Source of the DNA: Planosporangium flavigriseum
GTDB lineage: Bacteria > Actinomycetota > Actinomycetes > Mycobacteriales > Micromonosporaceae
Direction of reading: 5' to 3'
Length of the DNA: 64,000 nucleotides
NCBI RefSeq assembly: GCF_011947225.1
Contig: NZ_JAATVW010000004.1
Span: 186,001 to 250,000, forward strand
A program made the translations under genes and the position numbers. Shown here in pieces: positions 44,698 to 52,894 of the stretch (position 1 is the stretch's first letter; each line of letters starts with the position of its first letter). The notes below the pieces were generated by a model. That model did no database searches and was not told the DNA's origin. It saw nothing but the letters and a program-made list of their open reading frames with translations.

Positions 44698-45021
44698 TCA
44701 GATGGCGGCTTCGATCATGCGCAGCAGTGCGCTCTTCGGGTGGGCCCCGACGATCGACTGCACCGGCTGACCACCCTTGAAGATCGTCAGCGTCGGAACC
44801 GACATCACCTGGTACTGGGTCGTGGTCGACGGGTTGGCGTCGATGTCGAGCTTGACCACCTCGAGCTTGTCGGCAAGCTCAGAAGCGATCTCTTCGAGTA
44901 CGGGCGCCACCTTGCGGCATGGCCCGCACCACTCGGCCCAGAAGTCCACGAGTACCGGCTTGTCCGACTGCAGGACATCGCTGGCGAAGGTGGCGTCGGT
45001 GACCGACTTGGTGGCTCCCAT
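44698..45021 (-). CDS. trxA: Thioredoxin
   Basis: Thioredoxin reduces protein disulfides in the cytoplasm. The 107-residue protein has the active site WCGPCRK and cis-Pro block SVPTLTIF. It is 27 bases downstream of trxB and followed by a strong terminator. Only the normal single domain is present. Confidence 0.96.
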   Translation of the reverse strand: MGATKSVTDATFASDVLQSDKPVLVDFWAEWCGPCRKVAPVLEEIASELADKLEVVKLDIDANPSTTTQYQVMSVPTLTIFKGGQPVQSIVGAHPKSALLRMIEAAI

Positions 45022-45048: not shown

Positions 45049-45981
45049 TCAGGATTCCAGTGAAGCGATGTACCGCTCGGCATCGAGCGCCGCGGCGCAG
45101 CCGGTGCCGGAGGCCGTGATGGCCTGACGGTACGTGTGGTCGACGACGTCGCCAGCAGCGAACACGCCGGTCAGGTTGGTACGGGTGCTGGGGGCGGCGA
45201 CCTTCACGTAGCCCTCGCCGTCCAGTTCGACCTGGCCGCGGAACAGTTCGCTGCGCGGGTCGTGGCCGATGGCGACGAAGACGCCGGTCACGTCGAGCTT
45301 GGTCTCCTCGCCCGTCTTGACGTTGCGGACCATCAGTCCGCCAACCTTGCCGCCGCCGTCGATCACCTCGGTCACCACGGTGTCCCACATCACCCGGATC
45401 TTCGGGTTCGACAGCGCGCGCTCCGCCATGATCCTGCTGGCGCGGAACTGGTCCCGGCGGTGGATGATCGTGACGGTCTCGGCGAACCGGGTGAGGAACG
45501 TCGCCTCCTCCATCGCCGAGTCGCCACCACCCACGACGACGATGTGCTGGCCCCGGAAGAAGAAGCCGTCACAGGTCGCGCACGACGAGACGCCGTGGCC
45601 GAGCAGCTCCTGCTCGCCCGGGACGCTGAGTGGACGCCAAGCGGAGCCGGTGGCCAGGATGATCGCCTTGGCCCGGTACTCGCTGTCGCCGATCCGGACG
45701 ACCTTGACGTCCCCGGCCAGGTCCACCGAGGTGACGTCGTCGGTGATGAACTCGGCGCCGAACCGCTCGGCCTGCTTACGCATGTTGTCCATCAACTCGG
45801 GGCCGAGAACTCCGTCCGGGAAACCGGGGAAGTTCTCGACGTCGGTCGTGGTCATAAGGGCGCCACCCGAGGTCGCGCCCTCGATCACTAGCGGCTGCAG
45901 GTTGGCTCGCGCAGCGTAGAGCGAGGCCGTGTATCCGGCCGGCCCAGAGCCAACGATGATCAGGTTGCGGACGTCGTCCAC
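45049..45981 (-). CDS. trxB: Thioredoxin-disulfide reductase
   Basis: This flavoenzyme moves electrons from NADPH to thioredoxin. The 310-residue protein has the N-terminal FAD loop [14 protein letters not shown], the redox site CATCDG, the NADPH loop [10 protein letters not shown] and the C-terminal [11 protein letters not shown] block. It is cotranscribed with trxA and follows the sigma and anti-sigma pair by about 90 bases. The pair may be under the control of that sigma factor, which is an inference from position only. Confidence 0.96.
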
Positions 45982-46075: not shown

Positions 46076-46972
46076 TCACCCCACCGATCCGCTGTACAGC
46101 TGATCCGTGATCGCGCCGCCGGTGCCGCAGTTCGGGCCGACCGCTACGACCCATTTCTGGGCTGGGGCGCCCCCGGCACCGGCAAGCAGGACAACGAGAG
46201 CGGGGCTGCCTTCGTAGCGGGCGTAGTCCAACAGGATTGCCGTCCCGCCGTAGCGGGCCAGGACGGACTGAAGGCACGCGGCCCGGGCGTCCGGGTCGGT
46301 GAGCCTGCGCAGCGCCTCGGGCACCAGCGTGGGCCGACCTGCGGCCTCCGGCACACTGAGGGTGTTGGCACGAGATTCGGTCTTGGCGGAGCCGCTGCTT
46401 CGCGCCGAGACCGACGCACCGAGCGCCGTCAGCATGCCCGGGGTGTAGTCGAATCCTGACGTACGCACGTCAATCGCGGCGAGGCTGGCGGCGGAGCCGG
46501 CGCTGGACGGGGTTGCGGCCCGCCCCGCCGAATTACTCGCCATGGTTGTGGGGCCGCCGCCGCGCAGCCCCTGTGCCAGGGTCGCCGCGCCGAGGCCGAG
46601 TACGGCCGCAGCGGCCGCGACGCCGGCGACGGCGCGCCAACGACGTCGTACGGGCGAACTCGTGGCCCGGCCTCCCGGGAGGACCGACAGGTGGGCGCGG
46701 GGATCAGCCGGCGCTGGTGCGGTCAGTGGCGGCTCGGCGTCCAACGCAGCGGACAACCGAGCCACCACGTCGCTGGGGAGCGGTTCCGGCTGCGCGGCCA
46801 GTACGGCCAGGTCGGCGCGTACACCCGCGTCAGCGGCCACAAGATCGGCGTGCGCTCGGGTCCACAGCGGGTCGGTGGCGATGAGCCGGGCAAGGGCAGC
46901 CTGGTCAGGCGTGCCGTCCAGTGCTCCTCCGACGTAGTCGGCGAGCCGGTCGAGATCGACCTCACCGGTCAC
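46076..46972 (-). CDS. Membrane-bound anti-sigma factor candidate
   Basis: The 298-residue protein starts MTGEVDLDRLADYVGGALDG, with a cytoplasmic N-terminal part of about 110 residues, one membrane segment (about residues 112-136), and an outside domain rich in Ala, Ser and Gly with a Cys pair. This is the layout of ECF anti-sigma factors, though the zinc-binding His-Cys-Cys motif is absent. The ATG overlaps the sigma gene stop. It corresponds in place to Rv3912, which lies beside sigM. Confidence 0.72.
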   Translation of the reverse strand: MTGEVDLDRLADYVGGALDGTPDQAALARLIATDPLWTRAHADLVAADAGVRADLAVLAAQPEPLPSDVVARLSAALDAEPPLTAPAPADPRAHLSVLPGGRATSSPVRRRWRAVAGVAAAAAVLGLGAATLAQGLRGGGPTTMASNSAGRAATPSSAGSAASLAAIDVRTSGFDYTPGMLTALGASVSARSSGSAKTESRANTLSVPEAAGRPTLVPEALRRLTDPDARAACLQSVLARYGGTAILLDYARYEGSPALVVLLAGAGGAPAQKWVVAVGPNCGTGGAITDQLYSGSVG

Positions 46973-47622
46973 TTGCCACCCTCCTTCCCCACGCGTGTAG
47001 CGCCGGACGCGTTACCCGTCCGTGATGGGACGTCGCCCTGGCCCACGGGGTTCCGTTCGCCGGCCGGATCAGGGTCGCGAAGGTGGCCCAGCAGGACCGC
47101 TAACCGCGCCCGGCCGCGGGCGCACCGGCTCTTGACGGTGCCCTCCGCGACGCCGAGGACCCGGGCCGCGTCCGCGACCGGGTAGCCCTGCAGGTCGACC
47201 AGGACCAACGCGGCGCGCTGGTCCGGTGGTAGCTGCCCGAGCGCCGCGTGGACGACCAGGGCGGTGTCCCGGTCGACCGATGGCGCCACGGTCCGGTCGA
47301 CCTCCGGTAGCGGCACGGTCGGCCGGGCGTGGCGTCGACGCATTCGGTCCAGGCACGCATTCACCACGATGCGGTGCAGCCAGGTGGTGACAGCAGCGTC
47401 GCCGCGAAACCGGTCAGCCGTCCGGTAGGCGGACAGGAGCGCGTCCTGTAACGCGTCTGCCGCTTCGTCCCGATCGCCGATGGTCCGCAGGGCGACGGCC
47501 CACAGTCGGTCGCGGTGGCGGCGGACCACCTCGGCGAAGGCGTCCGGGTCACCGGCGGTGTGCGCGTGCATCAACGCCGCGTCGTCACGCGGGTCACGCC
47601 TCTCGGTCCCGCCGTCCACCAC
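46969..47622 (-). CDS. sigM: ECF RNA polymerase sigma factor (SigM-like)
   Basis: The 217-residue protein has sigma region 2 (ALRTIGDRDEAADALQDALLSAYR, then FRGDAAVTTWLHRIVVN) and region 4 with the helix-turn-helix (LPPDQRAALVLVDLQGYPVADAARVLGVAEGTVKSR). It recruits RNA polymerase to alternative promoters. The gene order trx-anti-sigma-sigma-MurJ matches the mycobacterial sigM locus, so the symbol is given on synteny. The overlap with the anti-sigma gene supports coupled control. Confidence 0.85.
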   Translation of the reverse strand: MVDGGTERRDPRDDAALMHAHTAGDPDAFAEVVRRHRDRLWAVALRTIGDRDEAADALQDALLSAYRTADRFRGDAAVTTWLHRIVVNACLDRMRRRHARPTVPLPEVDRTVAPSVDRDTALVVHAALGQLPPDQRAALVLVDLQGYPVADAARVLGVAEGTVKSRCARGRARLAVLLGHLRDPDPAGERNPVGQGDVPSRTGNASGATRVGKEGGK

Positions 47623-47658: not shown

Positions 47659-49200
47659 TCACTGTACGGAGACCGCGACGTCCTGAACGCCTACCTGGTA
47701 CTTCCCTCCGCCGAGGGGCGGCAGCTTGGTGATCCAGATAGCCAGGTAGCGGACCGGCGAGTCCGGTGGGCCGGGCAGCACGACGGTCGTACCGGCATCC
47801 TGCTTGACCTCACCGACCAGCGTGAAGTCGGCACCATTGATCTTCAGGGCGTTACCCTCGGTGGTCACCGACGCGTACGTGCCGGTGTCGCTCGGGGGCG
47901 CCGAGCTGGCCCTTAGCTCCATCGTCGCGCCGGGCGTCGCCAGCTGCACCTTCACCGAGACTACGTGCTTCTCGCTGCCCAAATCGAACAGCAGCCCCAT
48001 CCCTGACTTCAGGGTGCCGAAGTTCGGGTCGCCCTGGTACTGGTCGGTGCGCCAGACCGTGGTGGGATCGCCGTCGACGGTCTTCTTGACGTCGGTGTCC
48101 AGTTCGTTGTGGTTGCCCTTGACGTCGTCGAGGATGCGCACCTGGTCAGCGCTGAGCTTCAGATCGGTGATCGGGCCTGACCGTGCTCCCGCCGACGCCG
48201 AGGCCTTCCCGCCCCCGCCCTGCGGAACCGGGTCTCCACGGCCGGTCAGCACCTTGGTGGCGCCCAGCACACCGGCAAGGGCGATCACGATCAGTCCGGC
48301 GATCCCGACCACGATCTTCCGGTTGGTTGGACGGGGAGCGGCGGCGGCCACTGCGGCGGAGTCGAAGCCGTGGAAGCCCGAGTCCTCACCCATGAAGAGC
48401 GGGTGACCGCTCGTCTGCTCGAAGCGGCCAAGCTCGCCCACAAGGACGTCGGCCGAGGGAACGGGCAGCGCCGGGTTGAGCAGGTCCATGGTCAGCTCGT
48501 CGAGGGGGGACGGCACCCCGCCACGCACCTGCCGCGGTGCGGCAAGGTTGCCTCCGCTGTCCCGGATGGCATCCGGTACGGATGTCGGCCCGGCCTCGGC
48601 GTGGGGCCAGTAGCCGGTCAGCGCGCAGTAGAGGATGGCGCCGATCGCGCGCAGGTCCGCCTCTGTCGTGGTCGCCTCGTCGGCCCGCGCGTCGGCGAGC
48701 ACGACCCGGCCGTCGGCGGCGATGAGGACGGTGCCGGGGTGGATGTTGCCGTGGGCCATCCCCGTGCCGTGGATCGCGGCGACGGCGTCGGCGACCGCGC
48801 AGGCGATCGTGGCGGCGCGGTCCGGGTCGAGAGGGCCGTCGGACACCAGGTCGCGCAGGGAGGAGCCATCGACCCACTCCCGGACCACGTAGGCCCGTTC
48901 GGACTCGTCAATGGCGTCGTACACGCCGACCAGGTGCGGGTGCACGATGCGACTTGAGGCAACCGCCGCGGAGAGCATCTCGCTGGCGGAGTCGCCGCCG
49001 GGGTAGCGCAGCACGACAGCGACCGGGCGACGAAGGACCACGTCGGCCCCGCGCCACAACTGCCGCCCCAGCGAGTCGTTGTTGACGTGTTCCTCGAGCC
49101 GGTACCGCTCGGCGAGCACTTCTCCCACGGCAGGGGCGCCGAAGGTCAGCACCTGGGGGGCTGCCCCGAGTGCCTCCTGACCTTCGCCGTTCTGGGTCAC
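47659..49200 (-). CDS. Pseudokinase-discoidin membrane protein (MviN-associated)
   Basis: The 513-residue protein has a protein-kinase-like domain (about residues 30-270), one membrane segment (about 295-317) and an outside discoidin-like domain (about 335-510) with VKVQLATPGAT and DPTTVWRTDQY. Key kinase residues are missing: the HRD loop reads HGNIHP, the DFG place reads LADAR, and the VAIK place has no Lys. This is a pseudokinase, as in mycobacterial MviN (Rv3910), where the equivalent domain is fused to MurJ. Here it is a separate gene. GGGAGGA supports GTG 49200. Confidence 0.85.
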   Translation of the reverse strand: MTQNGEGQEALGAAPQVLTFGAPAVGEVLAERYRLEEHVNNDSLGRQLWRGADVVLRRPVAVVLRYPGGDSASEMLSAAVASSRIVHPHLVGVYDAIDESERAYVVREWVDGSSLRDLVSDGPLDPDRAATIACAVADAVAAIHGTGMAHGNIHPGTVLIAADGRVVLADARADEATTTEADLRAIGAILYCALTGYWPHAEAGPTSVPDAIRDSGGNLAAPRQVRGGVPSPLDELTMDLLNPALPVPSADVLVGELGRFEQTSGHPLFMGEDSGFHGFDSAAVAAAAPRPTNRKIVVGIAGLIVIALAGVLGATKVLTGRGDPVPQGGGGKASASAGARSGPITDLKLSADQVRILDDVKGNHNELDTDVKKTVDGDPTTVWRTDQYQGDPNFGTLKSGMGLLFDLGSEKHVVSVKVQLATPGATMELRASSAPPSDTGTYASVTTEGNALKINGADFTLVGEVKQDAGTTVVLPGPPDSPVRYLAIWITKLPPLGGGKYQVGVQDVAVSVQ

Positions 49201-49470
49201 CCGTCCTCCCTCTGGTCGGACCCCCGGCACATGGCGCGCCGTCGGTTCGCACATAAGCCTAGGCGTTAACGGCGACCGTCGGGACCGACCTTACCCGGCC
49301 ACGGCCAGCTACCGGATACTCCATCGTCACTTCCCTACAACGAAAGTAGGCGAATGATCTGCGGATTGTGCGTGTGGGACCACTCAGCGGAGCTGGTCGT
49401 AAGGCTAGGTCGTCAGGCTAGGCAGCCGCGAACAACCCCTTGAAGGGTACGAAACGCGACAGTTCGCGGT

Positions 49471-51282
49471 TCAACGTCCGAGCCGTGCGCGCAACATTCC
49501 GCCCAGTTCAGTGACCTCCCGCACGCGCAGGGTAGTGGCGGCGACCACATAGCCCACCAGCAGGACGATCCCGCCGACGATCACCTGAACCAGGCTGCCG
49601 ACCTTGCCGTCCCCCAGCAGCGCGTTGAGACCGTACGCGGCAAGCGCGGCCGGGACCGCAGCGACGGTCGCGGCCAGGGCCAGTCGGGCCAGCGTGGCGG
49701 ACACCCGCTGCAGCCCGAGCGGGCCGATGCGCCTGCGGAGTAGCCAGTACCCCAGGGCGGCCGCGACGACGAAGGACACCCCGTTGCCGAACATCAGGCC
49801 GGCGGCGGCCCAGGACGCCGAAAGCGTGAAGTACGCGACGACCTGTACGGCGATTCGAAGCACGACGACCGGCACGTTGAGCAGCGCCGGGGTCTTGGTG
49901 TCGGGCAGGGCGTAGAACACGCCCAGCTGGAGCTGACTGATCGCGAAGGGCACCAGGCCGAGCCCGGCGACGGCGATGACCCAGCCGGTGTCTACGGCCT
50001 GGGCGTGGGTGTACTCGCCCCACTCGAACAGGGTGACGCCCAGCGGCCGGCCCAGGACCAGGTACGCGGCGGTGGCCGGCACGAGGATGACGCTGGATAG
50101 GCGGGTGCCGAGCGAAAGCTGGTCCGCGACGTCGGCGTACCGGTGCTCGGCCGCGGCGGCCGCCATCCGCGGCATCAGCGCCGTCATGATCGAGACCGCG
50201 ACGACGCCGTGGGCCATCGCGAAGATCAGGAACGAGTTGAGGTAGATGGCGGGGCCGGCCGCGTTGCCGTCGTTGGCCGCCAGCTTGGCGAGCTTGAGCA
50301 CGACGATGACGCCGACCTGGCTGACCAGGACGTACCCGAGCATCCAGCCGCCGATGCGGGCCAGTTCGCTCAGGTGGAGTTGACGGAAGTCCCAGCGCCA
50401 CTTCCAGCGGAAGCCGACCTTGCGGAGGGCGGGCATCAGTCCGACGGCCTGTACGACGATGCCGAGGGTCGTACCCACGCCGAGGACGAGGAGCTGCGCC
50501 GTGGTGATCGACTCGGCGGTGAGGGTGTCGGACCCAGCCGGCAGCAACATGAACACCGCCGCCGTGAGGATCACGACGATGTTGTTCAGGATCGGCGTCC
50601 ACATCGGCGCCGCGAAGTGGCCCCGCGTGTTGAGGATCGCCGCGAGCAGCGCGGCCACCCCGTAGAAGAAGATCTCGGGCAGGAGCAGATACGCCAGCAC
50701 CGTGATCAGGCGCTGGTCGGCGGCTGACGCGCGGCTGGCCATGACGGAAGTGAGCAACGGCGCGGCGGCGACGGCGGCGACGGTCGCCGCGGCCAGGAAC
50801 AGCGTGGCGAGAGTGAGCAGGCGCTGGGCGTACGCCTCCCCGCGATCCGGGTCGGTGGTGCGGGCCCGCACCAGCAGCGGCACGATGACACTGGCCAGCA
50901 CGCCGCCGAGCAGCAGCTCGTACACCATGTTGGGCAGGGTGTTGGCGAGGTTGTAGTCGTCGGACACGGCGGCCGCGCCGATCGCCGCCCCGATGGTGGC
51001 GGTACGCAGGAAGCCGGTCACCCGGCTGACGATGCTACCGACCGCCATCGTGGCGCTGTGGCGCGCGACCGACCCCGCGCCGTCGTCCACCGGAGGTACG
51101 TCACCGGGCGCCTTGCTGGGCACCTGAGCCGGCCCGCCGGGGCCGGGCGTGGTCACGGCCGGCAGAACCATGGTGGGTTGGCCGTCGGTGCCGGCCCGGG
51201 CTTCCTGATTGACGACCGGCAGTGCGGCGGTTGCGTCAGGGTCGAAAGGTCGCGGATTGCCATATTCGGCCCGGCCGGTCAT
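49471..51282 (-). CDS. murJ: Lipid II flippase MurJ
   Basis: MurJ flips the peptidoglycan precursor lipid II. The 603-residue protein has about fourteen membrane segments and the MVF block with conserved Arg and Asp residues; a disordered N-terminal part of about 90 residues is rich in Pro and Gly. It ends after the membrane part, with no C-terminal pseudokinase, which lies in the next gene. The start is near 51282 and it is divergent from the CCA-adding enzyme gene. Confidence 0.92.
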   Translation of the reverse strand: MTGRAEYGNPRPFDPDATAALPVVNQEARAGTDGQPTMVLPAVTTPGPGGPAQVPSKAPGDVPPVDDGAGSVARHSATMAVGSIVSRVTGFLRTATIGAAIGAAAVSDDYNLANTLPNMVYELLLGGVLASVIVPLLVRARTTDPDRGEAYAQRLLTLATLFLAAATVAAVAAAPLLTSVMASRASAADQRLITVLAYLLLPEIFFYGVAALLAAILNTRGHFAAPMWTPILNNIVVILTAAVFMLLPAGSDTLTAESITTAQLLVLGVGTTLGIVVQAVGLMPALRKVGFRWKWRWDFRQLHLSELARIGGWMLGYVLVSQVGVIVVLKLAKLAANDGNAAGPAIYLNSFLIFAMAHGVVAVSIMTALMPRMAAAAAEHRYADVADQLSLGTRLSSVILVPATAAYLVLGRPLGVTLFEWGEYTHAQAVDTGWVIAVAGLGLVPFAISQLQLGVFYALPDTKTPALLNVPVVVLRIAVQVVAYFTLSASWAAAGLMFGNGVSFVVAAALGYWLLRRRIGPLGLQRVSATLARLALAATVAAVPAALAAYGLNALLGDGKVGSLVQVIVGGIVLLVGYVVAATTLRVREVTELGGMLRARLGR

Positions 51283-51394
51283 GCCTGAGAAGACTAGTGC
51301 CCCACCACCAGAAACTCACTCTGGCTCATGATCGCGCGGGGGTCGGGGATATGGGAGATGGCCGGGTCCCGGTCCCCGATAGGCTGGCTATCCC

Positions 51395-52894
51395 ATGTCG
51401 AACACCTCCTCTGCCGCCCGCGCGAGTGCCGAGAACCGCAACAGTCGGGAGCCAGCGAGCGCGCGCGAGCTCACCGAAGCCCAACGCCGAGCGGTCGCTG
51501 AGCTGATGCGCGTTTCGCCCGTCGCCGACGAGCTCGGGCGGCGTTTCGCCGCCGCCGGCCATGAGCTGCATCTGGTCGGCGGCTCGGTGCGCGACGCGCT
51601 GCTCGGCCGCCTCGGTGAAGACCTTGACTTCGCCACCAGCGCCCTGCCTGAGGAGACCCAGGCGCTGCTCCAGGGCTGGGCAGAGGCGATCTGGACGACC
51701 GGGATCGAGTTCGGCACCATCGGCGCCACCCGGCGGGGCCTGCGCTTGGAGATCACCACGTACCGGGCCGAGGCCTACGACCGGGTGACCCGCAACCCCG
51801 TCGTCCAGTACGGCACCAACCTGCTCGACGACCTGAGGCGCCGCGACTTCACCGCCAACGCGATGGCGGTGTCAGTGCCCGACCACCGGTTCACCGACCC
51901 GTACGGCGGCCTGACCGACCTGGCGGAGCAGACGTTGCGCACGCCCGGCACGCCGCAGGAGTCGTTCGCCGACGACCCGCTGCGGATGCTGCGGGCGGCG
52001 CGGTTCGCCTCGCAGCTGCAGTTCAGCGTCGCGCCCGACGTGGTGACCGCGATGACCGCGATGGCCCCCGACCTGCGGCGGATCACCGCCGAGCGGATCC
52101 GGGACGAGTTCACCAAGCTGATGACCGGGGCCGACCCGGTCGCCGGGTTGCGACTGCTCGTCGACACCGGCCTCGCCGAGCAGTTCCTGCCGGAGCTGTC
52201 GGGGCTGCGGTTGGAGATCGACGAGCACGCGCAGCACAAGGACGTGTACGAGCACACGCTGACCGTCGTCCGCAACGCCATCAACCTGGAGGAGGGCGGC
52301 CCGGACTTCATCCTGCGCATGGCGGCCCTCATGCATGACGTGGGCAAGCCGGCGACCAAGGCGGTCGGCCCGGACGGCCGGGTCAGCTTCCACCACCACG
52401 AGGTGGTCGGCGCGCGTCTGACCAGGCAGCGGATGAAGGCGCTGCGCTACTCCAAGGACGTCATCAACGCCGTCACCGACTTGGTCGCGCTGCACCTGCG
52501 CTTCTACGGGTACGGGCGGGGCGAGTGGACCGACTCGGCGGTGCGCCGCTACGTCACCGACGCCGGCGACCTGCTCCCCCGGCTGCACAAGCTGACCCGA
52601 AGCGACTGCACCACCCGCAACCGGCGCAAGGCGGCCGCGCTCGCGGCCGACTACGACGCGCTGGAGGAGCGCATCGAGCAGTTGCAGGCCGCGGAGGACC
52701 TGGCGAAGGTACGCCCGGACCTGGACGGAAACGCGATCATGGAGCTGCTCGGCATCCCGCCGGGCCCCCTGGTCGGCCAGGCGTGGCGGCATCTGAAGGA
52801 ACTCAGGCTCGAGCGGGGCCCGCTGGAGCACGACGAAGCGATCGCGGAGTTGCACCGCTGGGCCGCCGAGCGGGGCGTCACCCCGCCCGCGTGA
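51395..52894 (+). CDS. pcnA: CCA tRNA nucleotidyltransferase
   Basis: This enzyme adds or repairs the 3' CCA of tRNAs. The 499-residue product has the class II polymerase head with VGGSVRDALLGR and the catalytic EDLDFAT, then the neck and body (RFASQLQF, RI...AERIRDE), and a C-terminal HD domain with HDVGKP. The N-terminal 30 residues are Ala/Arg-rich. Its 3' end overlaps the cyclophilin gene by 17 bases on the opposite strand. Confidence 0.93.
   Translation: MSNTSSAARASAENRNSREPASARELTEAQRRAVAELMRVSPVADELGRRFAAAGHELHLVGGSVRDALLGRLGEDLDFATSALPEETQALLQGWAEAIWTTGIEFGTIGATRRGLRLEITTYRAEAYDRVTRNPVVQYGTNLLDDLRRRDFTANAMAVSVPDHRFTDPYGGLTDLAEQTLRTPGTPQESFADDPLRMLRAARFASQLQFSVAPDVVTAMTAMAPDLRRITAERIRDEFTKLMTGADPVAGLRLLVDTGLAEQFLPELSGLRLEIDEHAQHKDVYEHTLTVVRNAINLEEGGPDFILRMAALMHDVGKPATKAVGPDGRVSFHHHEVVGARLTRQRMKALRYSKDVINAVTDLVALHLRFYGYGRGEWTDSAVRRYVTDAGDLLPRLHKLTRSDCTTRNRRKAAALAADYDALEERIEQLQAAEDLAKVRPDLDGNAIMELLGIPPGPLVGQAWRHLKELRLERGPLEHDEAIAELHRWAAERGVTPPA

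Follow-up and report, generated by a model that had tools for sequence, protein, structure and literature searches.

The murJ and pseudokinase genes of Planosporangium flavigriseum

The stretch of DNA considered here, hereafter the window, comprises 64,000 nucleotides of contig NZ_JAATVW010000004.1 of Planosporangium flavigriseum (positions 186,001 to 250,000). On its reverse strand it carries a gene for the lipid II flippase MurJ, followed by a gene for a membrane-anchored pseudokinase. The murJ gene (49471..51282, -) encodes 603 amino acids with no C-terminal extension and matches PF03023 (286 bits) as well as the full-length MurJ profile TIGR01695 (279.7 bits, over the curated cut-off of 235.55). 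By these matches the product is a MurJ lipid II flippase, with flipping as its predicted activity. Profile positions 1-504 of 506 are matched at residues 71-593, and the chain therefore stops at its membrane part, which is preceded by an N-terminal tail of about 70 residues. A reading made from the letters alone, hereafter the sequence-only reading, had placed the end of MurJ after the membrane part and the pseudokinase in a neighbouring gene, which agrees with the span of the profile and with the two separate open reading frames. These lie 270 bp apart and are not joined in one chain, as they are in the MviN-type module of Mycobacterium tuberculosis.

The pseudokinase reading frame was earlier taken as 47659-49254 (-), beginning with an upstream ATG. 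Since a stop codon lies shortly before a conserved VTQxGEG in two relatives (L030 and L041), and since GGGAGGACGG precedes a GTG at 49200, translation probably starts at this GTG and yields a protein of 513 amino acids (47659..49200, -). The predicted cytoplasmic pseudokinase domain (about residues 22-258; 48427..49137, -) is recognised by Pfam Pkinase (41.5 bits) and by structure-sequence matches. It is followed by a single transmembrane helix, placed by alignment and by hydropathy in relatives (about residues 295-318; 48247..48318, -), and by an extracytoplasmic domain (residues 341-513; 47662..48180, -). In the juxtamembrane tail, GPLRF is conserved in most other Micromonosporaceae (L013-L047) and the window has HPLF (48360-48430, -).

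In an alignment with 18 other kinase-domain sequences of the same genome, the β3 lysine is replaced by valine (VAVV), the catalytic loop HGNIHPGT (48730..48753, -) has asparagine and threonine for the Asp and Asn of HRDxxxxN, and DAR represents a degenerate DFG that retains its Asp. The other domains of the genome have Asp at the HRD and DFG positions (18/18) and Lys wherever a residue could be aligned (13/13). Judged by these residues, the window kinase domain is catalytically dead. The sequence-only reading had called it inactive from HGNIHP, LADAR and VAVV, and all three motifs are real, LADAR being the degenerate DFG. The complete set of Lys, HRD Asp and DFG Asp was found in none of 120 MurJ-linked sequences of the class, comprising 42 from Micromonosporaceae, window included, and 78 from the other fetched regions described below. 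A broader statement, of HRD Asp loss in all MurJ-linked copies of the class, proved wrong, as 3 of these 78 (L095, L115 and L117) keep it, none of them with a complete triad.

With regard to the extracytoplasmic domain, a model of this part alone reached a predicted local distance difference test (pLDDT) score of 92. Foldseek matched it to CBM32 and other discoidin-like domains (E 6.3e-07 with the chitosan-binding module 4zxe), and a VIA comparison with 4a42 gave a Z of 14.7 and a root-mean-square deviation of 2.2 over 123 residues. The discoidin-type outside domain named in the sequence-only reading is thus supported, on the model, as a CBM32/discoidin-like jelly-roll, a sugar-binding type of fold shared with 4zxe, 4a42 and 7blg. 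The top matches are only about 10-20% identical to the window ectodomain, and sugar binding is predicted from the type of fold alone. A profile of the ectodomain family aligned by hhalign with the ectodomains of fused MurJ-pseudokinase proteins of family f2 at a probability of 99.8 (E 1.4e-27), and with six other sets at probabilities of at least 99.1.

Kinship with mycobacterial MviN

The solved structures closest to the window kinase domain are those of the M. tuberculosis MviN pseudokinase (3otv/3uqc/3oun; 1.7e-18, and 3.2e-23 with a profile search), ahead of PknB at 1.5e-12. In a quick kinase-domain tree, all 41 sequences of the class that were entered, including the window and the fused mycobacterial-type proteins, form one group (Shimodaira-Hasegawa-like approximate likelihood ratio test, SH-aLRT, 99), separate from the other kinases of the genome. 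PknB, a PASTA receptor kinase, has the same order of kinase, transmembrane helix and outside domain; it differs in having a complete catalytic triad, whereas the window gene joins a dead kinase to a CBM32-like domain. The C-terminal part of M. tuberculosis MviN/MurJ (Rv3910; 3otv, 3ouk, 3uqc, 3oun) likewise consists of a pseudokinase, a transmembrane helix and an ectodomain. Its pseudokinase is homologous to that of the window, and the ectodomains of fused MviN-type relatives are homologous to the window ectodomain. The window gene therefore has several features of the MviN-type module (closest kinship among solved kinases, an incomplete triad, a transmembrane helix and a homologous ectodomain), and the identity with the mycobacterial module proposed from the sequence holds.

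In one report, the tail of the MviN pseudokinase, there named ActPs3, is described as phosphorylated by PknB and then bound by FhaA, and F724 and W789 as bulky residues filling the ATP pocket, with W789 completing the C-spine (PMC12599244). When mapped by hand from the alignment, W789 falls on a Trp that is invariant in 41/41 sequences. The window gene differs from M. tuberculosis MviN in being separate, in its motifs (VAVV, HGNIHPGT and DAR for VALT, LSIDHPSR and Y--) and in lacking a tail site of the Thr947 type. Furthermore, another report describes an essential linker in M. tuberculosis MurJ, E541-F680, that binds CwlM (PMC6180346). A C-terminal stretch of this kind is absent from the window MurJ, whose membrane part is not followed by a linker and whose N-terminal tail carries TxxPhiPxPhi instead.

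Split and fused arrangements across the class

The MurJ search covered 128 class genomes, 126 of them with a match, and 101 genomes of the order, every one with a match; 100 MurJ regions spread over families were fetched (95 from the class and 5 from outside) and scanned with lax kinase thresholds. A kinase-like gene lay downstream on the same strand in 70 regions and in the same frame as MurJ in 13, giving a downstream or fused kinase in 83/100, always on the same strand. None was seen in 17, at least three of which (L068, L070 and L145) end at a contig edge. Kinase domains are scarce in the P. flavigriseum genome (21 in 5.72 Mb, or about 0.04 per 12 kb), so their presence beside MurJ is not a matter of chance. 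In family f90 (L048-L052) the kinase gene was not beside MurJ in any of the 5 fetched regions, the rest of those genomes not having been searched.

Fusion was seen in all 8 sequences fetched from family f2, in 3/4 from f92 and in both from f77; the fourth f92 locus, L059, has a true separate kinase gene, its ATG overlapping the stop codon of murJ. A restriction of fusion to mycolata was considered and set aside; three families carry fusions. On a quick MurJ tree of 106 sequences, with SH-aLRT as its only support, the fused state requires three changes. Three independent gains are the simplest reading of this tree, not the sole one, and the recurrence hints that MurJ and the pseudokinase work as a pair. 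Judged by these distributions, most of the class has the two genes split, and fusion is probably derived. The sequence-only reading had treated the split form as a special feature, which places the emphasis wrongly, the arrangement being not only common but also already in print. According to the S6 Fig legend of PMC10166564, published in 2023, mviN orthologues that lack the extension often have a 'protein kinase family protein' encoded downstream, the same split arrangement as in the window. This paper, in the portion available, was the only one found on the pairing in its split form; that portion does not term the downstream gene a pseudokinase and makes no connection with the ectodomain, with recurrent fusion or with active relatives. 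The same source remarks that the extended pseudokinase appears only in arabinogalactan-bearing organisms (PMC10166564). This remark is now qualified, since the separate-gene module is widespread in the class and f92 and f77 carry fusions too.

A candidate FhaA-docking motif

Two threonines in the N-terminal tail of the window MurJ, T18 (TAALPVV; 51211..51231, -) and T37 (TMVLPAV; 51154..51174, -), fit the pattern TxxPhiPxPhi, in which Phi is I, L, V or M (searched as T..[ILVM]P.[ILV]). This pattern agrees with the mycobacterial kinase consensus, with hydrophobic residues at +3 and +5, and with the preference of FHA domains at pT+3. The T18 site occurs in 7/7 of the nearest sequences, window included. 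A TMVLPVI nearly identical to the T37 site lies in the linker between MurJ and the pseudokinase of the fused L085 and L088. Moreover, all 8 fused f2 sequences have T[DE]xPhi just before the transmembrane helix, in a position fitting Thr947 (ADRTEIL; Thr at 960 in the 1198-residue frame of L087), and in five of the 8 this site reads TxxPhiPxPhi. The motif is found in both the linker and the pseudokinase tail of L085, L088, L089 and L090, and is present separately in f100, f101, f92, f99 and Micromonosporaceae.

In the order sample, 13/49 MurJ N-terminal tails carry the motif (shuffled mean 0.54, with 0/500 shuffles as high), as does some cytoplasmic segment of the MurJ pair in 17/49 (shuffled mean 1.59, again 0/500 as high), figures that shuffling overstates since the sequences share ancestry. 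Among Micromonosporaceae it was found in 9/40 loci. Per 1000 residues, its rate is 3.48 for MurJ tails, against 0.9 for the cores of MurJ and 0 to 0.04 for the products of the neighbouring CCA, sigM, anti-sigma, trxB and trxA genes. Elsewhere, a nearly perfect tandem repeat in the N-terminal tail of the separate L059 pseudokinase (f92) includes two copies of PTVMVPAVQ. T102 of SigM (RPTVPLPEVD; 47299-47319, -), between the two sigma regions, also fits; the pattern occurs in 0/32 SigM-like reading frames of the order sample. A second MurJ-type protein of the same genome (L002, G000:C24:27137-28468; 175 bits) lacks such a motif over residues 1-120 of its frame.

The genome encodes an FhaA orthologue with FhaA_N (PF12401, 133 bits) and FHA domains, whose nearest structures are TB39.8 (2lc1/3oun_A). 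Its gene and two intact kinase genes occupy C34:156669-164326, a span located 22-29 kb ahead of the first position of the window. T18 and T37 are only candidates for phosphorylation and FhaA binding. The mycobacterial mechanism of PknB, a tail threonine and FhaA cannot simply be transferred to the window gene, because the tail site is absent here and the candidate sites are on the MurJ N-terminal tail. The role of FhaA at MviN is disputed in mycobacteria, PMC11898655 not deciding between inhibition and promotion of wall synthesis by FhaA.

Relatives with an intact active site, and probable ancestry

In other classes, a kinase-plus-ectodomain gene was present in 3/20 MurJ regions. The ectodomain profile matched 117 of 246 genomes of the phylum, and the window genome once, at the window gene. 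All 40 loci fetched outside the class have the kinase and the ectodomain in one frame. Together with L143, L144, L168, L179 and L186 they make 45 outside sequences. A same-strand MurJ-type gene is close by in 26 of them; in the other 19 the available stretch shows none, some stretches ending at contig edges where a MurJ neighbour may be missed. Of the 26 adjacent copies, 16 (f9, f50, f45 and part of f31) have the Lys, the HxD and the DFG-type Asp, and the catalytic Asp is missing from the other 10 (f20, f14, f17, f15 and L201 of f31); the MurJ matches beside three f31 copies (L201, L210 and L216) are weaker, at 161-188 bits. The catalytic Asp is kept in 19/19 of the non-adjacent copies, the Lys of L196 not being aligned. 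Within L188-L227, such receptor kinases combine the same CBM32-like ectodomain with an intact active site away from MurJ in f16, f47, f25, f21 and others.

On a tree of 67 full-length sequences, 22 of them chosen from the class, the presence or absence of the Asp requires two changes. This tree is quick and unrooted, has many weak forks and leaves out the three class sequences that keep the Asp. A significant tie between loss of the Asp and adjacency to MurJ was considered and rejected: 32/48 adjacent and 0/19 non-adjacent copies lack it, but these amount to only 2 independent pairs. Inactivated kinases rarely recover their activity, which makes descent from an active ancestor the natural interpretation; this ancestor of the MurJ-linked pseudokinase was probably a receptor kinase already linked to MurJ. 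A fuller history can be offered tentatively, as possible rather than probable. The MviN pseudokinase would derive from an active CBM32-sensor kinase paired with MurJ deep in Actinomycetota, and MurJ-adjacent copies in other classes still look catalytically intact. Catalytic activity would have disappeared on two or more occasions, in the copies examined nowhere but next to MurJ, and PknB-type kinases would have taken over the job through a mobile TxxPhiPxPhi site, on the MurJ N-terminal tail in split forms and in the linker or pseudokinase tail in fused ones.

Genomic neighbourhood

The pseudokinase gene is followed after 36 bp by sigM (46969..47622, -; PRK09643, 277.7 bits), then by a probable anti-sigma factor gene, so named by position (46076..46972, -; no family over cut-off in the family scans), and by trxB (45049..45981, -) and trxA (44698..45021, -), both named from the sequence and both conserved neighbours. 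Upstream, a conserved gene of the CCA-adding enzyme/poly(A) polymerase type, assigned by family match, is divergent from murJ (51395..52894, +). Most of 41 Micromonosporaceae loci, some of which are incomplete, share the order CCA(-), murJ, pseudokinase, sigM, anti-sigma, trxB, trxA. The roughly 110 bp between the CCA gene and murJ (51283-51394) hold no mutT4 or Rv3909-like gene, such as lie there in M. tuberculosis; sigM follows murJ in that species as well.

Proposed function and alternative explanations

The product of the window gene may be a single-pass membrane pseudo-receptor-kinase that partners MurJ in trans. Its CBM32-like domain would stand outside, in a position to sense a sugar of the wall or of a precursor, and inside, the kinase fold without a working triad would serve as a scaffold binding MurJ and/or the PknA/PknB-FhaA machinery. 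PknB-type kinases would phosphorylate T18 and T37, FhaA would dock there, and the pseudokinase would hold the complex of MurJ, kinase and FhaA together, with a possible effect on flipping. Regulation of MurJ in trans is likely, given the recurrent fusion and conserved adjacency, and the proposal with all its parts seems to us slightly better than an even bet.

Several observations weigh against it. The pseudokinase tail (EQTSGHPLF...) has no TxxI/L/V, the N-terminal tail motif was found in 0/47 sequences of the other families of the class and in only 3/38 of the other Micromonosporaceae, and the pattern was framed after the window copies had been seen. F724 of MviN, again mapped by hand, is Leu in the window. 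The full-length AlphaFold2 model has a mean pLDDT of 56, mostly below 50 in the kinase part, and no argument on pocket, dimer or docking is drawn from structural models. Additionally, 14/95 regions of the class show no kinase gene at MurJ, so the partner appears dispensable in some lineages.

Exactly the mycobacterial mode, in which PknB phosphorylates the tail threonine, FhaA binds and MurJ is inhibited, would fit the homologous domains and the FhaA and PknB-type kinases of this genome; with T[DE]xPhi before the helix in every fused f2 sequence and missing from the window tail, it is unlikely here. The gene might instead serve SigM, the anti-sigma factor or thioredoxin, its place beside murJ reflecting a conserved cluster only. 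The constant gene order in most Micromonosporaceae loci would suit this, and it is nonetheless improbable in view of the fusions to MurJ in three families and the MurJ-adjacent copies in other classes.

Some pseudokinases bind nucleotide, and the DFG Asp is kept in 42/42 Micromonosporaceae sequences, which would allow the domain to bind ATP or retain weak activity. We consider this quite improbable, as all 42 have Val or Ile for the β3 Lys and Asn for the loop Asp, and as PMC12599244 reports no binding of ATP or Mg by the purified domain of MviN. That the gene is a relic on its way to loss would accord with the regions that lack it and is very improbable: the reading frame is intact, relatives are 49 to 83% identical to the window, many columns are invariant over 41 sequences, and the ectodomain is retained across classes.

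Significance

The window gene is the separately encoded, probably trans-acting version of a module already known; this version is common in the class and had been glimpsed in print before. In the literature searched, three aspects appear to be new: the MurJ-adjacent gene is often catalytically intact in other actinobacterial classes; TxxPhiPxPhi occurs on the MurJ N-terminal tail here and at the FhaA-docking site in fused proteins; and the ectodomain is common to split, fused and active forms, with fusions beyond f2. The control of lipid II flipping in actinobacteria is an open question, and the split form permits the flippase and its putative regulator to be deleted, swapped and titrated separately in harmless strains. 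If active kinases beside MurJ do exist in this family, their substrates would reveal the former job of the dead ones.

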